A DNA stretch of 64,000 nt from Antedon mediterranea (Eukaryota; Echinodermata; Crinoidea; Comatulida; Antedonidae), in NCBI RefSeq assembly GCF_964355755.1, contig NC_092670.1, forward strand, positions 19,529,201-19,593,200. Reading direction: 5' to 3'. The translations under genes and the position numbers were made by a program. This document shows positions 41,801-59,200 of this stretch, piece after piece (positions within the stretch are counted from its first letter, which is position 1; each line of letters begins with the position of its first letter). The notes beneath the pieces were generated by a model. That model was given only the letters and a program-made list of their open reading frames with translations, had not been told where the DNA came from and did not search any database.

Positions 41801-43978
41801 AATGCATTTTGGGATTTATAGCGGGCCGCTATAATTATTAGAATCGACTTATTTTTCACATTTTTAACCGTTTAAAGACGAAAAAAGTTATCGCAATAGG
41901 ACCATATAGTATTATTTTTACATTAAATATAGTTTGTGATCTTAAATTAGATCTAAAAAACGTAGGGAAGGGGGCTTTAACTCTAGTGTGTATTAACACA
42001 GCAAACAGTACAAAAAACTTACTAATGATACATTTAACATCCGTCTTAGCTGAGTATCTTGTGAACGGATCATTGAAAGACTTCTAGCCACCTGATTGTT
42101 TGTTATGATCCCAAATACGATAGGATTAATTGGATCTTTTACTACTGCTCTTACGGAAGCTTTGAAAAAGGATACAAAACCAGATGGTTCCTGTAATGTT
42201 CCATTCAATGAAGGTAAAAAGTTGAAATAGGCAATTACTGAAACCTACAAGAAAAATAAAATGTATGTACTGAATTCTATAGCTACACAAATATCAAAAT
42301 AGATGTTCAGTTCAGACTCTCTTGCCATAGATTGATCAACAACACTGACACTATTAAGCTCTGTCTACACTATCAAATTGTATGTGACAAATATATTGAC
42401 ATGATGTCATATCACTACCACATTTGGGCAGATCACACTTTTTTTGTCAAACTAGTTTGATAGTGTAGACTTTATAGTATTTGTATAAACAAATATTTTC
42501 AAATAAACTTACATCATGTTCAGCAGAAAACAATTTCAGACTTTGCTTATCTTCTATGAACGTAAACGGATTTATGACACGTTGGAGAAACATGGTCATA
42601 CTCTTTTCCTTCAGTAGTCCGGTGTATTCAAGCTCGCCAAGAGTTTGGTGGATCAGAGTGAACATGGGGTAGTAGTTGAGGACTCGCTGACGGGCACAAA
42701 CGCCATAGGGCCACCAGCAATTGACAGCAAAGAATTTCACATCCTATTAACATAAAAAAGATAATTTATATTAGCTGGATGTTGTAATAATAGATCATCT
42801 CTGATCAAGCTGTGAAATGGTATAATATTTTGAGGTAATAGGAAAAGGAGAAGGAAAATATGCATCTACGATGAGATCACCATATACAGTGGCGTAACAC
42901 AGAGTCTTAAATTTGGCAATGTACTGCAATTGGCTCTCCAACACTGGGGACAGAGGGTCGAGAAGGGCCTGTTGGAGCAAAGTCACCAGCCTTTTTAGCC
43001 TATTTAATTCTTCTTATCTGGGGTTAGTTAGATTATTTGTACAATGATTATAGCTTATCATCAGTATATTGTTAGAACTATATGTTTACAACAAACCTTG
43101 CAGACCATTTTTCTAGCGACATTTTCAAACTCTTGTGCAGCACTCAAAGAGGTGCCATCCCAGTGAGCATAAAACATTACCATCACAAAGTCAACTTCTC
43201 TGAATTTTAAAAGTTCCTCCACTGCCACCATGTTACCATCAGAAAACTCTAACACAGGTGAACCTTTTTGAAAGACACGTTGTGGCATTGGAATAGGATC
43301 AACATTTCTGTATGAAAAAAAAATTATTTTACACAAACATTACATTACATATTATTACGTTACTATAATAATATTGTGTTACAGGTTGATCGTGCAGATA
43401 GTCAATGTTCCGTGTTGAAGCTATTAGCATGGAAAACTGCATCTAAATCATTGTTTTCTAAAAAAATTAAATTTAGTAATAATAATAATTAATATGTGTG
43501 TGTATTAAATTCTGTGTTTTGCTAAATTCTATCAAATGTATTGTAGTAGTAGCAATGAACGACCGAGCTGATAGAAAACTTTACATTTATGCCATGAAGA
43601 AAGTATGCACACCTTCTTGAATCTTGATAGCAAATATTAAGTCATGATTAAATTGTACGTGCACACTTGACTGTGTTAATGAATGGTCACTTCCTGCCGA
43701 GACCGCCTTGGGCACCACCATACTGTGACTCTGCTTTCTAAAATTAGTAAAATTATCTTTTCGCAGACTTACCTACTACTACTAAACCCTGAAGGTTTCA
43801 TAGCTAGCAATGTGAATATAAATGCCACAACAAAACACCATGTTTGTGGACTCTTTGCCATTTTCAAAACAATCCTTGAAACAAGTTTCCAGATGTGTGT
43901 GCAAACCAGATATAAACCTTTTTTAAATCTTTTAATCAAAGGCCTAGTGAGCCTATCAAGGCCTACGGTCCATACCAT
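35882..43978 (-). CDS. TXNDC11: Thioredoxin domain-containing protein 11 homologue, complete, 10 coding exons
   Basis: Minus-strand exons 43978-43773, 43307-43097, 42743-42513, 42244-42023, 40897-40829, 40548-40420, 38961-38281, 37340-37125, 36740-36622 and 36056-35882 join in frame to 752 residues. The vertebrate protein is an ER membrane protein with thioredoxin folds that binds the DUOX maturation machinery and EDEM proteins. Seen here are an N-terminal membrane helix (about 47-62, CFVVAFIFTLLAM), a first thioredoxin-like domain with WDGTS at 118-122, the conserved NCWWPYGVC (147-155), FGIITNN, GLGCKTNKTLDFYA, and a last thioredoxin domain with YAPWCGLC (663-669) and RIDGDANDLPWQF. Unlike the human protein it stops just after the last thioredoxin domain and lacks the C-terminal coiled coil. 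The first domain has lost its cysteine. Start ATG 43978 gives the longest N-terminus; the Met in LKMAKSP is an alternative. Confidence 0.93.
36967..37090. mobile_element. Short MITE of the AAGCTCTGTCTACACTATC family, copy 5, in a TXNDC11 intron
   Basis: Lies between exons 9 and 8 of TXNDC11. The termini AGCTCTGTCTACACTAT and AGTGTAGACAGAGCTT are clear; the centre is shortened relative to other copies. Confidence 0.8.
38066..38222. mobile_element. Short MITE of the AAGCTCTGTCTACACTATC family, copy 6, in a TXNDC11 intron
   Basis: Lies between exons 8 and 7, only 59 bp from the donor of exon 7. The centre carries a duplicated AATATGGTAGTGATATG word. Flanks CTAA and TTAA are compatible with a TAA target duplication. 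Confidence 0.85.
39944..40260 (+). mobile_element. tRNA-Leu/Ser-like SINE in a TXNDC11 intron
   Basis: The head has a tRNA-like shape with a perfect 7-bp acceptor stem (GAGTGAG/CTCACTC), the A box TGGCCGAGCGG, a long variable arm and the B box GGGTTCGAGGC. The tail contains CACACACTGTCATGGACAGA and GGCGCCGTAGTTGGCTGC, shared with the tandem copies at 34545-34755, and ends in an A-rich GAAGAAGAAAG stretch. Confidence 0.75.
40650..40800. repeat. Degenerate 16-bp minisatellite (CCGAATTGTCCCTAGT type)
   Basis: About nine degenerate units such as CCGAATTGTCCCTAGT, CCGAATAGTCCCTGGT and CCGAGTTGTCCCTGGA run in tandem inside a TXNDC11 intron. Later units drift (GAGCCGAAATGTTCCT). Non-coding. Confidence 0.75.
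41345..41980 (-). mobile_element. TTAA-flanked MITE, copy B, in a TXNDC11 intron
   Basis: Reverse complement of 6756-7387 over about 630 bp with high identity. TTAA is intact at both ends (41345-41348 and 41977-41980), followed inward by AAGACCCCTTCCCTGC and AAGCCCCCTTCCCTACG termini. It stands about 40 bp from the donor of exon 4. No transposase is encoded. Confidence 0.75.
42356..42470. mobile_element. Short MITE of the AAGCTCTGTCTACACTATC family, copy 7, in a TXNDC11 intron
   Basis: Lies between exons 4 and 3. The left terminus AAGCTCTGTCTACACTATCA is intact. The right end stops at GATAGTGTAGAC without the final AGAGCTT, so the copy is slightly truncated. Confidence 0.8.
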
Positions 43979-44412
43979 AACCTAGGTTTCAGCCTTTCGG
44001 CAAAATCATGTTATTTGTTGCCATATTTATTCTCTAGGCCTAGGCCTAGCGTACCCATTTTAAACAATCATGCACACTGCAAATCGTGGGTTTGCACACA
44101 TTTTTATCTGAACTTTGAACCATAACGTGGCCGTCTTCGATTTCTCGCCTTTCGTGTCGCAACGTCATACGTCTTCGTCGTCGTCGTATATAACATTATA
44201 AATATATTTTTTAAAATTATTTATAACCAATACATTTAAATATTTAAAAAAAGAATATATATAAATTATTAATATTATTTAATAATAATATTTTTCTAAC
44301 TGTTTTTAGGAAAAAATTAATTTTTTTTAATGTTGTTATGTGTTATATATAATGATTAGTGTGATCGAGGACACTTTAGAGTACATTTTTCTTTTTGCCG
44401 TATGCTCTCATC
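43979..44412. promoter_or_regulatory. Shared intergenic promoter region of TXNDC11 (-) and RPL3 (+)
   Basis: The two genes are divergent with 434 bp between their start codons. The middle (44120-44200) has CpG-containing sequence with an (CGT)n run TCGTCGTCGTCG, unlike the AT-rich surroundings. Just before the RPL3 start codon, the pyrimidine-rich TTTTTCTTTTTGCCG at about 44386-44400 resembles a 5' terminal oligopyrimidine start site, as expected for a ribosomal protein gene. Confidence 0.5.
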
Positions 44413-47400
44413 ATGGTTAGTCGTGATTTTGTGTGCCTCAAATATCTCATTTTTAAATGTGCTTTTGTGGTACATCTACGATTAATGTTAGAAGTATAGA
44501 TATAAATAAAAGTTAATATTTAATAAGAGTACCTTATTTTCTGTGCATATATAATTAAATAGTGTGATTTTAACTTATTTCATTGTTAGTTTATTTTCAA
44601 AATTAGGCCAACTATACAGTACGCCTACTACCCCAGGCAGGTCCTACTATTCTAGTAGGCCTACTAGTTAAAGCCTGGCTGGCAGTTTATCATTGCATAA
44701 TTATGAGTATGAAATCTATTTTGCAGAAATAAATGTGTGAATCTGTACAGTGAGTGAGTGCTAAATTGATTAAACTAAACTTGAAAATTTACAAATATAT
44801 TTCATTCCAGTCGCACAGAAAATTCTCGGCACCACGCCATGGCTCCTTGGGTTTCTTGCCACGCAAGAGGAGTAGACGCCACAGAGGAAAGGTGAAGGCT
44901 TTCCCAAAAGATGATGCATCAAAACCAATTCACTTGACAGCATTTATTGGATACAAGTCCGGCATGTCCCACATTGTACGAGAAGTTGACAAACCAGGAT
45001 CAAGTATGTTGCAACTATAATAGCTTTGCATTTCTATCCGATTACATTACAGTTAACTCCGAATGACTTCAGTATTCTCTTTTCTAGGCCCTATACTTTT
45101 CTCTTATCTTATATACGAAAATATGACACATACCTATCTTAACCATATTTATCACTAAACACAAGAATTAGTGAATATTTATACTTCGCAATGTACAACT
45201 TTTAATTGCCTTATTTATATTTACAGAGGTGAACAAGAGGGAAGTTGTAGAAGGTGTAACAATCATTGAAACTCCACCAATGATCATCGTCGGTGTAATT
45301 GGATACATTGAGACACCCAGAGGAATGAGGTCATTGAAGACAGTCTGGGCTCAACATTTGAGCAATGACTGTAAAAGACGCTTCTACAAAAACTGGTAAG
45401 ATAGCCCACATAGTGAATATTCGTGACAACATGACTGTGTTTTATGGTAGACCTGTACCAATGCATTTGTCAGTTAAATGAAAATGTATAATAAAACATT
45501 AATATATTAATTAATAACTCGAGAATCTATTATTTCAAATGACTAAAGATCAAATGGCGAATTTCTATTGCCTCTGCAATAACATTTTTGCTAATTGTTC
45601 AAGATGTTTATTACTTGTCAACATTGTTATTAACCATTTATTTTGCTCTCCTCTCAGTTTTGAAACTGACGAGAGCATCATGCACCCTGATATAGGCACT
45701 TCCTTTCAAGGGCTCCTCTTGTGTCATCAGCCAGTGATGAGCCTTACTTAAATGAAGCCGTGACCTCCCCAAAGGTTTCACTCACCTTAGTTCTTGTCTC
45801 CTCTCAAGTCAATTGATGAGGCTTCAACCTGATGATGATCCTCAATCAGATGCCCTACCAAAAGCAACCCTTCAAAGGCTCCTCTCGTGGCATTAGTCAC
45901 TGATGAGCCTGACTCGAGTCTCCGCTCATATCATTGATGAGGCTCTCCCTCAAGTCCCTCCCTCATTTCTGTTCTTATTTCCAAATAACTGAAGGTACTG
46001 TGCCAAGAAGAAGGCATTTACCAAGGCATCCAAGAAGTGGGAGGATGAAGTTGGAAAGAAGGAGATTGACAAGGATTTCAATATGTTGAAGAAATACTGC
46101 TCTGTCATCAGAGTTATTGCTCACACCCAGGTACTACAAAATGCCTTTTCTTGATTATTTAGGCATTGGCGTTATTTTCACTGTATTGCACATATGCCTT
46201 GGTAGCCCACCCAGCCCGCCTTCACCTGATGCATTGATATCGTATTAATAGTTTTGTTTGTATAATATGTAGATGAAGTTGATGAACCATCGACAGAAGA
46301 AAGCTCACATCATGGAGATACAGGTGAATGGAGGTGACATTGCTTCCAAGGTTGATTGGGCAAGAGACAAACTGGAGAAGTCTGTACCAGTGTCTGAGGT
46401 TTTTGGAATGGATGAAATGATTGATATCATTGGCGTTACCAAAGGAAAGGGCTTCAAAGGTATGGTGTTTTTATGTTTTTTTAATTTAAAATATGCCTTT
46501 AAAAATGGTTGTTTTTGTCCCAATAAATTTCCATACCCCTGACTGTCACTTGCACTACATAGTTTTCCGTAAATTAAAGACATGCGTCTGTCTAATGTTT
46601 TTATTGAGTTGAATTTACATGATGAAACACATGGAATGTGTCTTTCTGATTTCATTGATGAGACTATCCATGCTGCCTTCCTTCTGATAAGAAAACTTCT
46701 CAATAGTCACTCAAATCTGTAGGATTCTCTTTAAAAACTGGATTCACAGCAAGCACTGAATACAATAGACAATCATTCACTCGTATGAATACAGCACACA
46801 GCTCTTTTTGTATACACTATTGACATCTTTTCCAGTTTTAGAATAGTAAAGTTAACTTTCCCAATACCAGAATCTCCAAAAACCAGAAACTCGGCCTCAA
46901 CCAGACTTTATTGAAAACATTCAGATTACCAGACTTTACACATTAGGTAACTGTATTTAACTAGTGACAATAAGATGCGTTTTGTGTTGTCTTTCAGGTG
47001 TAACATCTCGTTGGGGGACCAAGAAGTTGCCACGCAAGACGCACAAAGGTCTGCGCAAGGTTGCATGTATTGGTGCATGGCATCCTGCCCGTGTGGGCTA
47101 CGGTGTCGCACGTGCCGGACAGAAGGGTTACCATCACCGAACTGAGATCAACAAGAAGGTTTATCGTGTTGGTAAGGGGTACCACATGGAAGATGGTAAG
47201 CTGATCAAGGGCAATGGAACAACCGCTGGTGATGTTACCGAGAAGTCTATCAACCCAATGGTTAGTGGTCTTACAGTATTTTTAATCTTTCACCAATTTT
47301 TATCAGAGATTTGTGTTGTTGTAGTGCTTATTTGTATTGGTGCAATTTTTACTGTTTTATTTATATATATGATTTTATCTTTCAAAACAATATTTCTGTG

Positions 47401-48242
47401 TATTTTTTAAAGATACTATGACAATGAATTCGATTTTGGTTGTACAGTAATTGTTAACAGAAAATACAACATTTGTTATATTTGTAGATAGATATGCTTT
47501 TGGTAATGATTTTTACATTATTTTTTTTCAGGGTGGATTTCCTCATTATGGTGAAGTGAAAAATGACTTCCTGATGGTGAAAGGTGGTGTGATGGGACCA
47601 AAGAAGCGTGTTCTTACTTTAAGAAAGGTATGTTTAATTTTAAGACTATTTTAGACTAATTTAAAAGGTGCATAATAATTGTGTTTAAGCTGGAATCTCC
47701 ACTTGCATAGTTTTTATTTCTTGCCATTGAGGTGGGTTATGTTTTTTAATGTATTTTCAAGTAAATAATGATGAAACACATGGAATGTGTCTTTCTGATA
47801 TCTTTGATGAGATCATCCATGCTGCCTTCCTTCTGATATCTTGAAAATAAATAAATATACCCACAGAGCACTATTAAAATACTTTATTAGAGACAGTGGT
47901 TGTTAAAGGGATCTGATTTTCCATTAAGTTAAATTCAACCAGGAATCAATATTGTTTAATTATTTGTATATCTAAATTTTATTCTTAGTCGCTCCTTGTT
48001 CATACCAAACGTGCTGCTATGGAGAAGATCACTTTGAAATTCATTGATACAACTTCCAAATTTGGTCATGGACGTTTCCAGACCCACAGTGAGAAGCAAG
48101 CCTTTATGGTGAGTAAAATTTGAAGAAAAAAATATAGTGATTGACAAGAAAATATTTATAATTTTATTTTTATTTGTAATTTTTATTTTCATTTATACAG
48201 GGACCTCTCAAGAAAGACAAGCCAAAAGAAGCAACAGCATAG
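44413..48242 (+). CDS. RPL3: Large-subunit ribosomal protein L3 (uL3), complete, 9 coding exons
   Basis: Exons 44413-44415 (ATG only), 44811-45003, 45227-45395, 45995-46130, 46273-46459, 46998-47260, 47532-47627, 47989-48108 and 48201-48242 join in frame to 402 residues, one fewer than human RPL3. uL3 is a core 60S protein whose W-finger and basic thumb reach the peptidyl-transferase centre. The sequence matches the family throughout: [20 protein letters not shown] at the start, [76 protein letters not shown] and [15 protein letters not shown]. The start codon alone in exon 1 follows from the CATG|GTTAGT donor and the TTCCAG|TCGCACAG acceptor. Introns 5 and 7 carry C/D snoRNAs. AATAAA is at 48365-48370. 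Confidence 0.97.
45640..45975 (+). repeat. Diverged GGCTCCTCT / TGATGAGGCT hairpin repeats in RPL3 intron 3
   Basis: Two units of GGCTCCTCTTGTGTCATC(A) followed by AGTGATGAGCCT and several TTGATGAGGCT units make short hairpins (GGCTC...GAGCC, CATCA...TGATG). The TGATGA and CTGA words resemble snoRNA boxes, but spacing and guides do not form a convincing C/D RNA. They may be remains of intronic snoRNAs or a local repeat. Confidence 0.4.
46614..46692 (+). ncRNA. C/D box snoRNA, SNORD83-like, in RPL3 intron 5
   Basis: C box ATGATGA (46619-46625), D' CTGA (about 46646-46649), C'-like TTGATGA, and D box CTGA (46684-46687), with short flanking complementarity TTA/TAA as a terminal stem. The guide just before D, TGCTGCCTTCCTT, pairs with the conserved 18S rRNA stretch AAGGAAGGCAGCA. 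The fifth base upstream of the D box pairs with the third A of that stretch, the position known in human as Am468 and assigned to SNORD83A/B. Those human snoRNAs also sit in RPL3 introns, which strongly supports the assignment. Confidence 0.88.
47757..47843 (+). ncRNA. C/D box snoRNA, SNORD83-like, in RPL3 intron 7
   Basis: Near-identical to the snoRNA of intron 5: C box ATGATGA (47768-47774), D' CTGA, C' TTGATGA, D box CTGA (47833-47836). The D guide TGCTGCCTTCCTT is the same. The terminal stem CAAG...CTTG closes it. The differences from the intron-5 copy lie between D' and C' and just after C', while both guide regions are unchanged, as expected for two functional paralogues. Confidence 0.88.
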
Positions 48243-50961
48243 ATACAATGAGAACTCACTACGGTACATCTATCATAAGGCAAAGTTATTAAAACCAACT
48301 ATCATGCTTATATTCTTTTGAATTTGAGATAAATATTAATAACATCAAAAAGCTATGACAAATGAATAAATGAAATAACATGAAAAATAGATATTTCTCT
48401 TTGCCTTTTTATTTCATTTTTTAAACAGTATTGAGGCCAATTTACACAGACTAGCGGTAACTGTAACAAAAATATAGAATGTGTTATTCCTTAAGACCAT
48501 TTACACACAAGATTCATTGTAATGGTCCAATTTAAAATGGAAATAATGATGGGTAGTTTCCGCTCAGGATAGATTCTATGTGGGACAAGCTACACTGTTT
48601 TGCTTACCGTTACCGCTCATCTGTAAATTGGCCTTTAAGATTTATTTAAAAGCAGTGGACAAAAGGACACAAATTTATGCATACATATGAGCTCGGTATA
48701 CACTTGTAAATTATCTGGACTATATTATTTGATACTGTATAATACAGTATTTGTCTGCCGTTGCCAAAACAAAAGCTTGCTTATTTAATTACGGTACTGT
48801 AATACAAATGTTTGTGCTGAACACAAAACATAAGAAGCCTAAAGCATATTTTAATTGGTTACACAATTTTTCAAGTCACAAAAAGTAGTTGAAAATGACA
48901 ATACACATGCTCGCTTGTTAACATTTTCCATTCGCCAAATGGATATTGTGGGCTTAAAAGTAACCAAGAAAATGATGGAAGGCCTAGAGGAACCATCAAC
49001 TGACATGGCTGAATAATTGCATTTTCTAACTGCTATTTGTTGCTGAAGCATTGTTGTACATTAATTCCCACATCCAACCAGAGGATCATCGGAATTAAAT
49101 ACTAAGAAGTTTAAATTTTTTTTTTAATTTATAAAATAAAAAAACAAAATATAAACAGCGCCCCCTAACGGGTTGTTTGAGTTCGACGGCGGCGATGACA
49201 AATTCGTCAACATCCGTTTTTTAGGTACCGAATAAAATCGTGGAGTGTGTGAAAGAAGGGGTCTTGCTAGGCCCAGGCTAAGATTGGTTATCATAATTGT
49301 ACGTTTTAAAAGGTAAGCGGGTGTTAATTACTTGTTAATTGTTTATCAGTAATGGTATAAAATAGCGCCGAATCTACTCTAGGCAGAGGGACGACGTGTG
49401 TGTGAAGGTATAGGATAGGCCTAGCCTAGGACCTTTTTTAGTACTTTACTACTTTAGGCTCTCCGATCTGGTCGCACTCTATAGGGTTCACCCACTCTAG
49501 GGGGGTCTAGCTAGTAGGCCTACGTCGGCAATATCGTCATTAACGGGGCGAGGTGATCGGTGCTACAGCCTACTCTGAGGAAAGTTTTTATTTAAGCAAT
49601 AAGGCATAATAATTCTGCCGTCAATTTTCTCGTTTAAAACATAGATAGGCCTAGGCTAGGCTAAATAAATACAAAAAAAATGGCTAGGCCTAGGGCCAGG
49701 CCCTAGTTATTATTCTTTTTTTAGCTAGAGGCCTAGGTCCTAGCAGGAAGAAGGTGGGCACTGGTCTGTATTTATAACCGTTTATTTATAAATAATATAC
49801 ATAAATAAGGTTTTAGGTATCAAACTTTGGTAAATAAATAGGCATACTGACTGAAAATAATTTACCTTGCGCAGTTTAAAATTTTCTGGCAATTTGAGTG
49901 TAATAAATTTGCTCAAGAAAATCCCTGCGTAATTTCAAATTGCACCAATCATTCAAATTGCGAATAACATGTTAAATACCAATTCTCGTGAACACTCTAG
50001 GCTAAGCGGGGATGACTAATATTAATAATGTGTGTACGTTACGGTGCAAATTAAATCAAGTGACTAAGTAAGATTCAGTAAGTAAATTACTTTTAAATTA
50101 GGCCTAGTCCTTATCTAAAAAAAGACATTTTTTTAATACAATTTAGTATCTGTTAGTTAGGTTATGATTTTATTAATGTTTTTAAACGAATATTTCACAA
50201 TGTGAAAACCGTTATTCTTGTGCTGTTGTTACATGTAAACTTTCTACAGTTATATTACCTCTTTACAACATTTTGTGTTTATACAAAAACAGTAAATCCT
50301 GCCTGTAGGGTCTTTATATGCTACCATATTGTATCAATGTTTGTTATATTACATTATGTAATCAGGTATTCAATGGTGAATGTCAAATGCATAAAAGGAC
50401 ATCAATTTAATTCTAAAAATATTTACATATTGTGGTTTTAAAAAACCAGACTTCCTTATTCTTTGCTCCAAAATGTCCCAAATTCTCTTTATATTGCATA
50501 AAAAACTTGCTAAAATACAGATTTTCAAGAGTTTCAATTCAAAGGAATACCCCCTAGATAAAATAGTATTTTACGAGAGTATACTTTATACATAAAAATG
50601 TTAAATAAAATAAAATAGTATTATAAATAGGTTAATTGAGGTTACTACAGATAAAACGTCTCATGAAAGAACGGAGTTATCTCTTTGACAGAAAATTAAG
50701 ATGAATACTGTACATTTTACTGTATTTTTTGGTACATTTAAAAACACAAATTACTGATGTTGAATGACAATATTTTAATTTAGAAAGCTGCCTTAATTAT
50801 AGTAGTTTATTATTATTTTTTAGCACCTTCTAAATCCATTAATATACTGTAAAATATTGAGATTTTTATACACATACTTTTATATATAAATTGTATTGTT
50901 TTTTATTGATTGTTTCTATGAATTTTAAATCAACCTGATCCATTTATATTAATTAATCATA

Positions 50962-56297: not shown

Positions 56298-59200
56298 ATG
56301 GCGAACCACCGCCCCCGTTCCTCCCACTATTATGATGAAGAGGAGGATCTAGAGTTAGAAATACAGCCAGGCTATGAGATGGATATGTACCCAGAAGCCG
56401 CAGGAGAAATATATCAAAATCAACCAGTGCCTAGATATTCACACAAGCTAGGGCCTCATGCACGTGTTCAAGATATACCAATGGATTATAGTATGTTTTT
56501 GTTGTTATTTTGGTGTTACACACACTCAGATCGCCCACTAAGTCCATAAACTTGTTTCTAATGGGGTCCTTCTGGTGGTGAATTGGTCAGTACACCAGGA
56601 GACGATTCCCTACTCTTTTTCGAAGAGTGTACCGCGTTCTTTAACATGCACATGAGCCATGTTGCTCAAGGATCCAATGGCATAACGTCTCATCTAAAAG
56701 ACTGCGCTATCATGTATTCCAAACCGCAAGGTTGAACACATAGAGAGCGGTGATGGGATTCAAACCGTGGACCAAAGAAAACCGGAAAAAATGGTCTTTC
56801 ATGGTTCAGTGCACAACAGTGACTAGCACCAGTTTAGCCGACTGTACTATGTGCTCAAATTACCTTATTTTTTCATAGTAATTAATCTATATATAAAATA
56901 ATATATAATAATTCTCAGAGATTTATTGTTTCAAATTAATTATTTAAATTTTCAGTATATCACCGGGCAGTTTAGAATTCATGTTTTGTTCCTGATGTGA
57001 TTAATAAATAAATATTTTACTGTACTATTATGATTATTTATTTTAATTATTTTCTAGCTAACCAGGGGTATGATGAAAATGGTGATGCACAACATATATT
57101 TGTTGATGTGGGTAATGACAGAGATATAAACGAGGATTTCTCTAGCGATGAATATAACTCACGAAGTGACAGTGACGACGAAATCGCGAGGAGGGAGTTT
57201 ACCGCAGCCTCACTGGAAGACCCTAACAGTATTCTGAATATGTTACCATCTAGGCAATTAGGTACTAACTTTTTTAAATTTTTAGAAAGAAAGAATTCTT
57301 GTTGATGGTGGCCTTGGAGAAGATTGTAATAATAGCAAACATTCACTAAGTTACAGTATGAGTGAGATAAAAGCCCATACAGTAGCATCTTTTGTGGCCT
57401 TTTCAAACTAGAGGCAGCAGGGAAAGTGATGTTAAATAAGCCTAACTAAACACCCCCTCAGCCTGTTAAAATCCTGACTATCAGCTTGACATTATGCCTA
57501 GAATTTGTAAACCACACATGCTTTGTTATTCGTACTTTTGTTCTATGTTTGATTTTTATAGCTGGCAGTTTAGCACGAGTTCAGTCATCGCATTCATGGG
57601 TACGCAATCGAAAAAGTGGAAAAAATGGTTTTAAGACGATCAGAGGCAAGAGAGGACAAGAGGCAACGGAGGAGGTGATCGAGCGGATGCTAGGTAACGA
57701 TAAAGTTGACGGTTCTAGAAAAGGGCAGCTTTTCCGACGTGAGACGGTCAAAGGACTGTCTAGTAGTATGGAAGCAAAGAGGCATATCAGGTGAGTATGG
57801 TCTTTAGCCCTAAATACTTCTGTAAATTAAAGCCCTGTTTACACTAAAATAGCTTGTTTTTGTTGTGTGTACAAAAGAGTTGTGCAGTTGTGAACAATAT
57901 AATATATATATATATATATATATGTAAATCAATGATGTTGCGTAGCACTGTGTAAATTATATATAAATCATACTGTAAATTATAGAAACAGTGCTCATAT
58001 TCGGAACATGATCTCATAATCGCGTCGAGCATAGCTCATTGGCGAAAGTTCCGTATTTTTTAGTTGTATGAAAAAATGTCTCTGGCTGGATTCGAACCTG
58101 CAACCTCTCGCTTACAGGGCGAGTATCATACCACTAGACCACAGAGCCATGTATGGTATTATCACAGATTTTCACCCACCAGATACATTCTCTCATACAA
58201 CAAACGCCCTCACAATCAGTGGAGGCTTAACAAGTCAGAATAAATTCCAACTTTAATTCGCAACGGTTTTTTAAATAATATTGTGTATTTGTAAATCAAT
58301 GATGTTGCGTAGCACTGTGTAAATTATATATAAATCATACTGTAAATTATAGAAACAGTGCTCATATTCGGAACATGATCTCATAATCGCGTCGAGCATA
58401 GCTCATTGGCGAAAGTTCCGTATTTTTTAGTTGTATGAAAAAATGTCTCTGGCTGGATTCGAACCTGCAACCTCTCGCTTACAGGGCGAGTATCATACCA
58501 CTAGACCACAGAGCCATGTATGGTATTATCACAGATTTTTTTATTTTTGAGAGAATGTATCTGGTGGGTGAAAATCTGTGATAATACCATACATGGCTCT
58601 GTGGTCTAGTGGTATGATACTCGCCCTGTAAGCGAGAGGTTGCAGGTTCGAATCCAGCCAGAGACATTTTTTCATACAACTAAAAAAATACGGAACTTTC
58701 GCCAATGAGCTATGCTCGAAGCGATTATAAGATCATGTTCCGAATATGAGCACTGTTTCTATAATTTACAGTATGATTTATATATATATATATATATATA
58801 TAAATCCAAAGGCAAATTACTGAAAAAAATGACAATGCTGTGGGTATCAGTGGCTGGATCTCAATGGAGATACAAAAATAAAAAGCGAAAAGCTAAATCA
58901 AAACGATAAAGTAAACAGCCAGAAAAGTTAGCAGAGCTTTCGGGCAACACTAGCCCTTCATCAGTGCAAGTGAAGGAATTATATTATATTGTTCTTCTTT
59001 TATTCCTGTCCATTGAGATCCAGCCACTGATACCCACAGCATTGTCATTTTTTTCAGTAATTTGCCTTTGGATTTATATATATATATATATATATAAAAA
59101 AATCAAGATCAAATAAGTTAAAACTGCCTCAATATAGATTTATTTTAACGACATGTCGTTAAAATAAATCTATATTGAGGCAGTTTTAACTTATTTGATC

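Follow-up and report, generated by a model that had tools for sequence, protein, structure and literature searches.

The RPL3 Locus

Within the window, that is, the whole 64,000-nt stretch of Antedon mediterranea DNA that was analyzed, the coding region of RPL3 (uL3) occupies positions 44413..48242 of the plus strand, with the start codon at 44413 and the stop codon ending at 48242. The spliced model comprises nine exons that encode 402 amino acids, and all of its introns are of the GT-AG type. The deduced product matches the Pfam family PF00297 Ribosomal_L3 (E 5e-182) and the animal uL3 chains in the PDB (E 3e-220). On the plus strand, this model places introns 1 to 4 at 44416-44810, 45004-45226, 45396-45994, and 46131-46272, and introns 6 and 8 at 47261-47531 and 48109-48200, respectively. 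Intron 5 (46460-46997) and intron 7 (47628-47988), on the same strand, each carry one copy of a box C/D element. A permissive Rfam scan of positions 43000-50500 identified no other known snoRNA in the RPL3 introns, such as SNORD43, a resident of human RPL3.

Several other features were observed. Intron 3 of RPL3 contains a 331-nt stretch (45640-45970) with an MFE of -92 kcal/mol (z -3.9), a stability reached by 0/100 shuffles; it includes several CTCC...GATGAGG hairpins and has a single match genome-wide. A 47-nt direct repeat (45702-45748 and 45868-45914, 83%) lies in the same intron. Since human RPL3 uses intron 3 for its autoregulation through splicing and NMD (PMC5297773), a structured autoregulatory element in this intron is worth testing. 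Elsewhere in the window, positions 58076-58667 hold three equally scoring tRNA-Thr(TGT) genes within 600 bp, one of them oppositely oriented. A tRNA-like gene on the minus strand (2723-2794) has the anticodon ATC (Asp), an unusual one in animals, which would be expected to have GTC; it may be a tRNA-derived repeat. Outside the window, U2 snRNA genes form a large one-strand array (G000:C3:13659899-13714335), in which many are about 780 bp apart.

Two Box C/D Elements in Introns 5 and 7

From C box to D box, both elements measure 69 nt and lie on the sense strand of the host gene, copy 1 at 46619..46687 (+) and copy 2 at 47768..47836 (+). In copy 1, the C box ATGATGA (46619..46625) is followed by a D' box CTGA (46646..46649), a C' box TGATGAG (46656..46662), the D guide TGCTGCCTTCCTT (46671..46683), and the D box CTGA (46684..46687). 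The same boxes recur at equal spacing in copy 2, in which the D guide occupies 47820..47832 and the D box 47833..47836. The correct spacing of the C, D', C', and D boxes claimed in the preliminary description thus holds for both copies; the C' box (UUGAUGA/UGAUGAG) departs from the consensus at one place.

The near identity of the two RNAs, also claimed there, is confirmed as well: 65 of the 69 positions agree. This similarity is confined to the elements, since their 40-nt flanks agree at just 8/40 and 13/40 positions and the introns are otherwise unrelated. The four differences (46651/47800, 46654/47803, 46664/47813, and 46665/47814, in copy 1/copy 2) all fall in spacers, outside the boxes and both guide segments (P 0.007). 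When the boxes and the D guide are set aside, the sparing of the segment before D' is by itself not unusual (P 0.13).

When both strands of the window were searched for a C box and a D box combined with a 12-nt rRNA complement, just these two elements emerged; the same search of 20 mononucleotide-shuffled windows gave one hit overall. A DNA-similarity search of the 354-Mb, 18-contig assembly revealed no further copies. The genome-wide search with RF01179, which scored a small share of the candidates, also returned none; however, weak extra copies are possible, because this search itself missed copy 2.

Relationship to the SNORD83 Family

At the Rfam gathering thresholds, no match to either element was reported. 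In a covariance-model search with E-value reporting over 7.5 kb (43000-50500), the best scores were obtained with RF01179 snoU83, at 43.8 bits for copy 1 (E 5e-5) and 39.7 bits for copy 2 (E 4.3e-4), against a gathering score of 50. Copies 1 and 2 were also matched by U83B (RF00593; 28.7 and 27.6 bits, against a gathering score of 35), by U83D (26.3 and 30 bits), and by the snR52 model (26.7 and 24.5 bits). Although their scores are under gathering, the E-values of the U83 matches are nevertheless significant, and together these sub-cut-off matches point to a single kind of RNA. The SNORD83-like identity proposed earlier is therefore upheld by the E-values for both copies, but not at the level of the gathering score. 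Given that this cut-off is a curation threshold, the shortfall lowers the certainty of the assignment and leaves intact an assignment made by guide and host.

The D Guide and Its Predicted Target in 18S rRNA

The rRNAs of the species were assembled from DNA matches and Rfam hits on several loci, with degenerate rDNA copies included; the 28S covers about 90% of the Rfam model. On contig 2, the rDNA is dispersed, and some of it is degenerate. Every base of the D guide is complementary to AAGGAAGGCAGCA in the species' own 18S copies, which contain CCAAGGAAGGCAGCAGG. The duplex comprises 13 Watson-Crick base pairs that start right at the D box, and its fifth base faces an A; just 1/300 shuffled guides scored as well. 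The adenosine selected in this way is the equivalent of human A468; the complementarity to 18S and the correspondence with the adenosine assigned to human SNORD83A/B, both put forward in the preliminary description, hold. In human 18S, A468 is assigned to SNORD83A, through its D guide, and to SNORD83B, with RPL3 as the host, and mouse, zebrafish, and yeast carry the methylation at this site as well (PMC8210301). The literature on this target is not uniform, as some older or clinical papers describe SNORD83 as lacking a known target or as having a non-canonical one (PMC3412847, PMC12288042).

External Stems and the Probable Activity of the Two Copies

External stems are, according to work reportedly by Darzacq and Kiss, an established route for C/D snoRNAs that lack a terminal stem. 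Around copy 2, the arms TATTTTCAAG (47752..47761, +) and CTTGAAAATA (47840..47849, +) form 10 bp, a length reached by 33/2000 shuffled flanks, and this stem is present in the MFE fold. The corresponding stem of copy 1, TATTGAG/CTCAATA, has 7 bp and is no better than chance (283/2000 shuffled flanks); statistical support for an external stem thus comes from copy 2 only. In addition, about 300 nt separate copy 1 from the 3' splice site of its intron.

Taken together, the two elements are very probably intron-encoded box C/D snoRNAs orthologous to SNORD83, which would guide 2'-O-methylation of the A468-equivalent and would thereby be functional equivalents of yeast snR52. This assignment is supported by the U83 matches, the boxes and their spacing, the confinement of identity to the element, the 13-bp duplex, the unique result of the window scan, the sparing of boxes and guides by the differences, and the published assignment of this 18S site to U83 RNAs in human and chicken and to snR52 in yeast. 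It is weakened by the scores under gathering and by the position of copy 1, which is far from the 3' splice site and has a stem at chance level. We infer the following course of expression, processing, and action: the RPL3 introns would be spliced out and debranched to free the snoRNAs, C/D proteins would bind the C/D and C'/D' motifs, and the 13-nt D guide would direct fibrillarin to the 18S adenosine. Both copies probably supply the same guide, in redundant doses.

It is unlikely that just one copy is functional, with the other a recent, intact but inactive duplicate. Near identity permits such a recent duplication, and copy 1 lacks a significant external stem and sits at a greater distance from its 3' splice site; however, the four differences spare all boxes and guides, and the human SNORD83A and SNORD83B are reported from introns 5 and 7 of RPL3 (PMC3412847), the same two introns as here.

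The Segment Before the D' Box

The segment that precedes the D' box, GGAATGTGTCTTT, lies at 46633..46645 (+) in copy 1 and at 47782..47794 (+) in copy 2, unchanged between the copies as had been noted. From this invariance, it had been suggested that the segment may have a target of its own. No such target was found in 18S, 5.8S, about 90% of 28S, 5S, U2, or U6, where nothing rises above shuffled guides. The best duplex in the species' own rRNAs was on 5.8S, at the A80-equivalent (GGATACATT), with 10 bp including two G-U, and its score was matched by 115/300 shuffled guides. U2 and U6 offered just five to seven pairs. Likewise, a second guide of the snR52 type at D', directed to LSU Um2921, had no significant match in the roughly nine tenths of the 28S model covered. 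The exact complement of the segment, the 13-mer AAAGACACATTCC, occurs 36 times in the genome, against 10 times for the reversed control pattern; two of the 36 occurrences are the snoRNA genes themselves.

That the segment is a working second guide too, for example on 5.8S, is thus very improbable. Chicken offers a precedent, since the D' guide of its U83 has been assigned a second, different target, in 28S (PMC2653536), and both the invariance between copies and the 5.8S duplex are in keeping with such a role. These points are opposed by the shuffled guides, by the results for U2 and U6, and by the ability of part of the segment to pair internally. The species' own 5.8S (locus L038 2364-2519 and other copies) reads GGATACATTGATC where vertebrate 5.8S has GGACACATTGATC, and this U in place of C weakens rather than strengthens the duplex.

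The internal pairing would join the start of the segment to TCCATG. In copy 1, the 5' arm CATGGA occupies 46630..46635 (+) and the 3' arm TCCATG 46667..46672 (+), the last two bases of which overlap the D guide. The resulting helix, CAUGGA/UCCAUG (6 bp), is present in the MFE fold of both copies, and the fold of the whole RNA is no better than that of shuffles (z -0.3 to -0.9). The U83 consensuses also permit comparable pairings, namely GGAAUG/CAUUCC in U83B, AGAUGGUA/UACCAUCU in U83D, and a shorter UGGA/UCCA in RF01179 (combined P about 5e-4, with consensus letters taken from the covariance-model output). At the corresponding place, the Rfam snR52 model has CGGA/UCCG marked. Within the helix, the changes from U-A to C-G and from A-U to U-A are of the compensatory type. 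These observations suggest that U83 and snR52 RNAs commonly have a helix beside the C box and the D guide, one that the U83 Rfam models lack; as a handful of consensuses is involved, it counts as a lead.

Comparison With Known Systems

The elements are ordinary, well-preserved members of the known SNORD83/snR52 family. It is very improbable that an unrelated C/D snoRNA converged on the same 18S site and resembles SNORD83 in its D-guide sequence only: guide and boxes do supply much of the Rfam score, and there are weak matches to the snR52 models too (26.7 and 24.5 bits), but the U83B consensus likewise has the CAUGGAAUG segment following the C box, and human SNORD83 has the same host gene.

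With SNORD83A/SNORD83B (U83; RF00593, RF01179, RF01175), the Antedon copies, read as SNORD83 orthologs, have in common the D guide, the 18S adenosine, and the box layout, and they further resemble them in the CAUGGAAUG segment, the RPL3 host, and the presence of two copies. The human host gene, target, and two-copy state invoked in the preliminary description all agree with what is found here, the last as a description. The correspondence of introns 5 and 7 is one of number, as reported for human; human RPL3 has ten exons, compared with nine in Antedon, so equal intron numbers do not prove equal positions. The Antedon copies differ in scoring below gathering, in being almost identical to each other, and in their D' segment, and in comparison with the U83B consensus the region between their D' and C' boxes is shorter.

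Yeast snR52, or Z13 (RF00335), has the same D guide (UGCCUUCCUU) and the same 18S site, and it too may form an internal helix at the corresponding place (CGGA/UCCG, as noted above). It is not known to lie in an RPL3 intron. Chicken U83a/b have been equated with yeast snR52 at this 18S site (PMC2653536). In yeast, snR52 also targets 25S Um2921 (PMC3511168), whereas no equivalent target emerged for the Antedon copies in the 28S covered.

Such close similarity between the two copies implies one of two histories, a recent duplication or the action of gene conversion on old copies. We tentatively raise the possibility, which we regard as somewhat short of an even chance, that paired SNORD83 genes in RPL3 introns 5 and 7 descend from a common ancestor with vertebrates, the copies being kept near-identical by gene conversion (concerted evolution). 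If this were true, the host, the introns, and the dose would have stayed the same over a very long period, with a different host serving in sponges. Sponge SNORD83 orthologs are likewise located in introns of a ribosomal protein gene and have a conserved guide, but they are hosted by RPP0 rather than RPL3 (PMC3412847), so the host differs in the sponge lineage. The interest of the Antedon elements lies mainly in this question of host-intron stability: the association between SNORD83 and RPL3, documented for human, extends to an invertebrate in which the intron numbers also agree, and RPL3 introns 5 and 7 across animals offer a simple test of deep host-intron stability versus snoRNA mobility.
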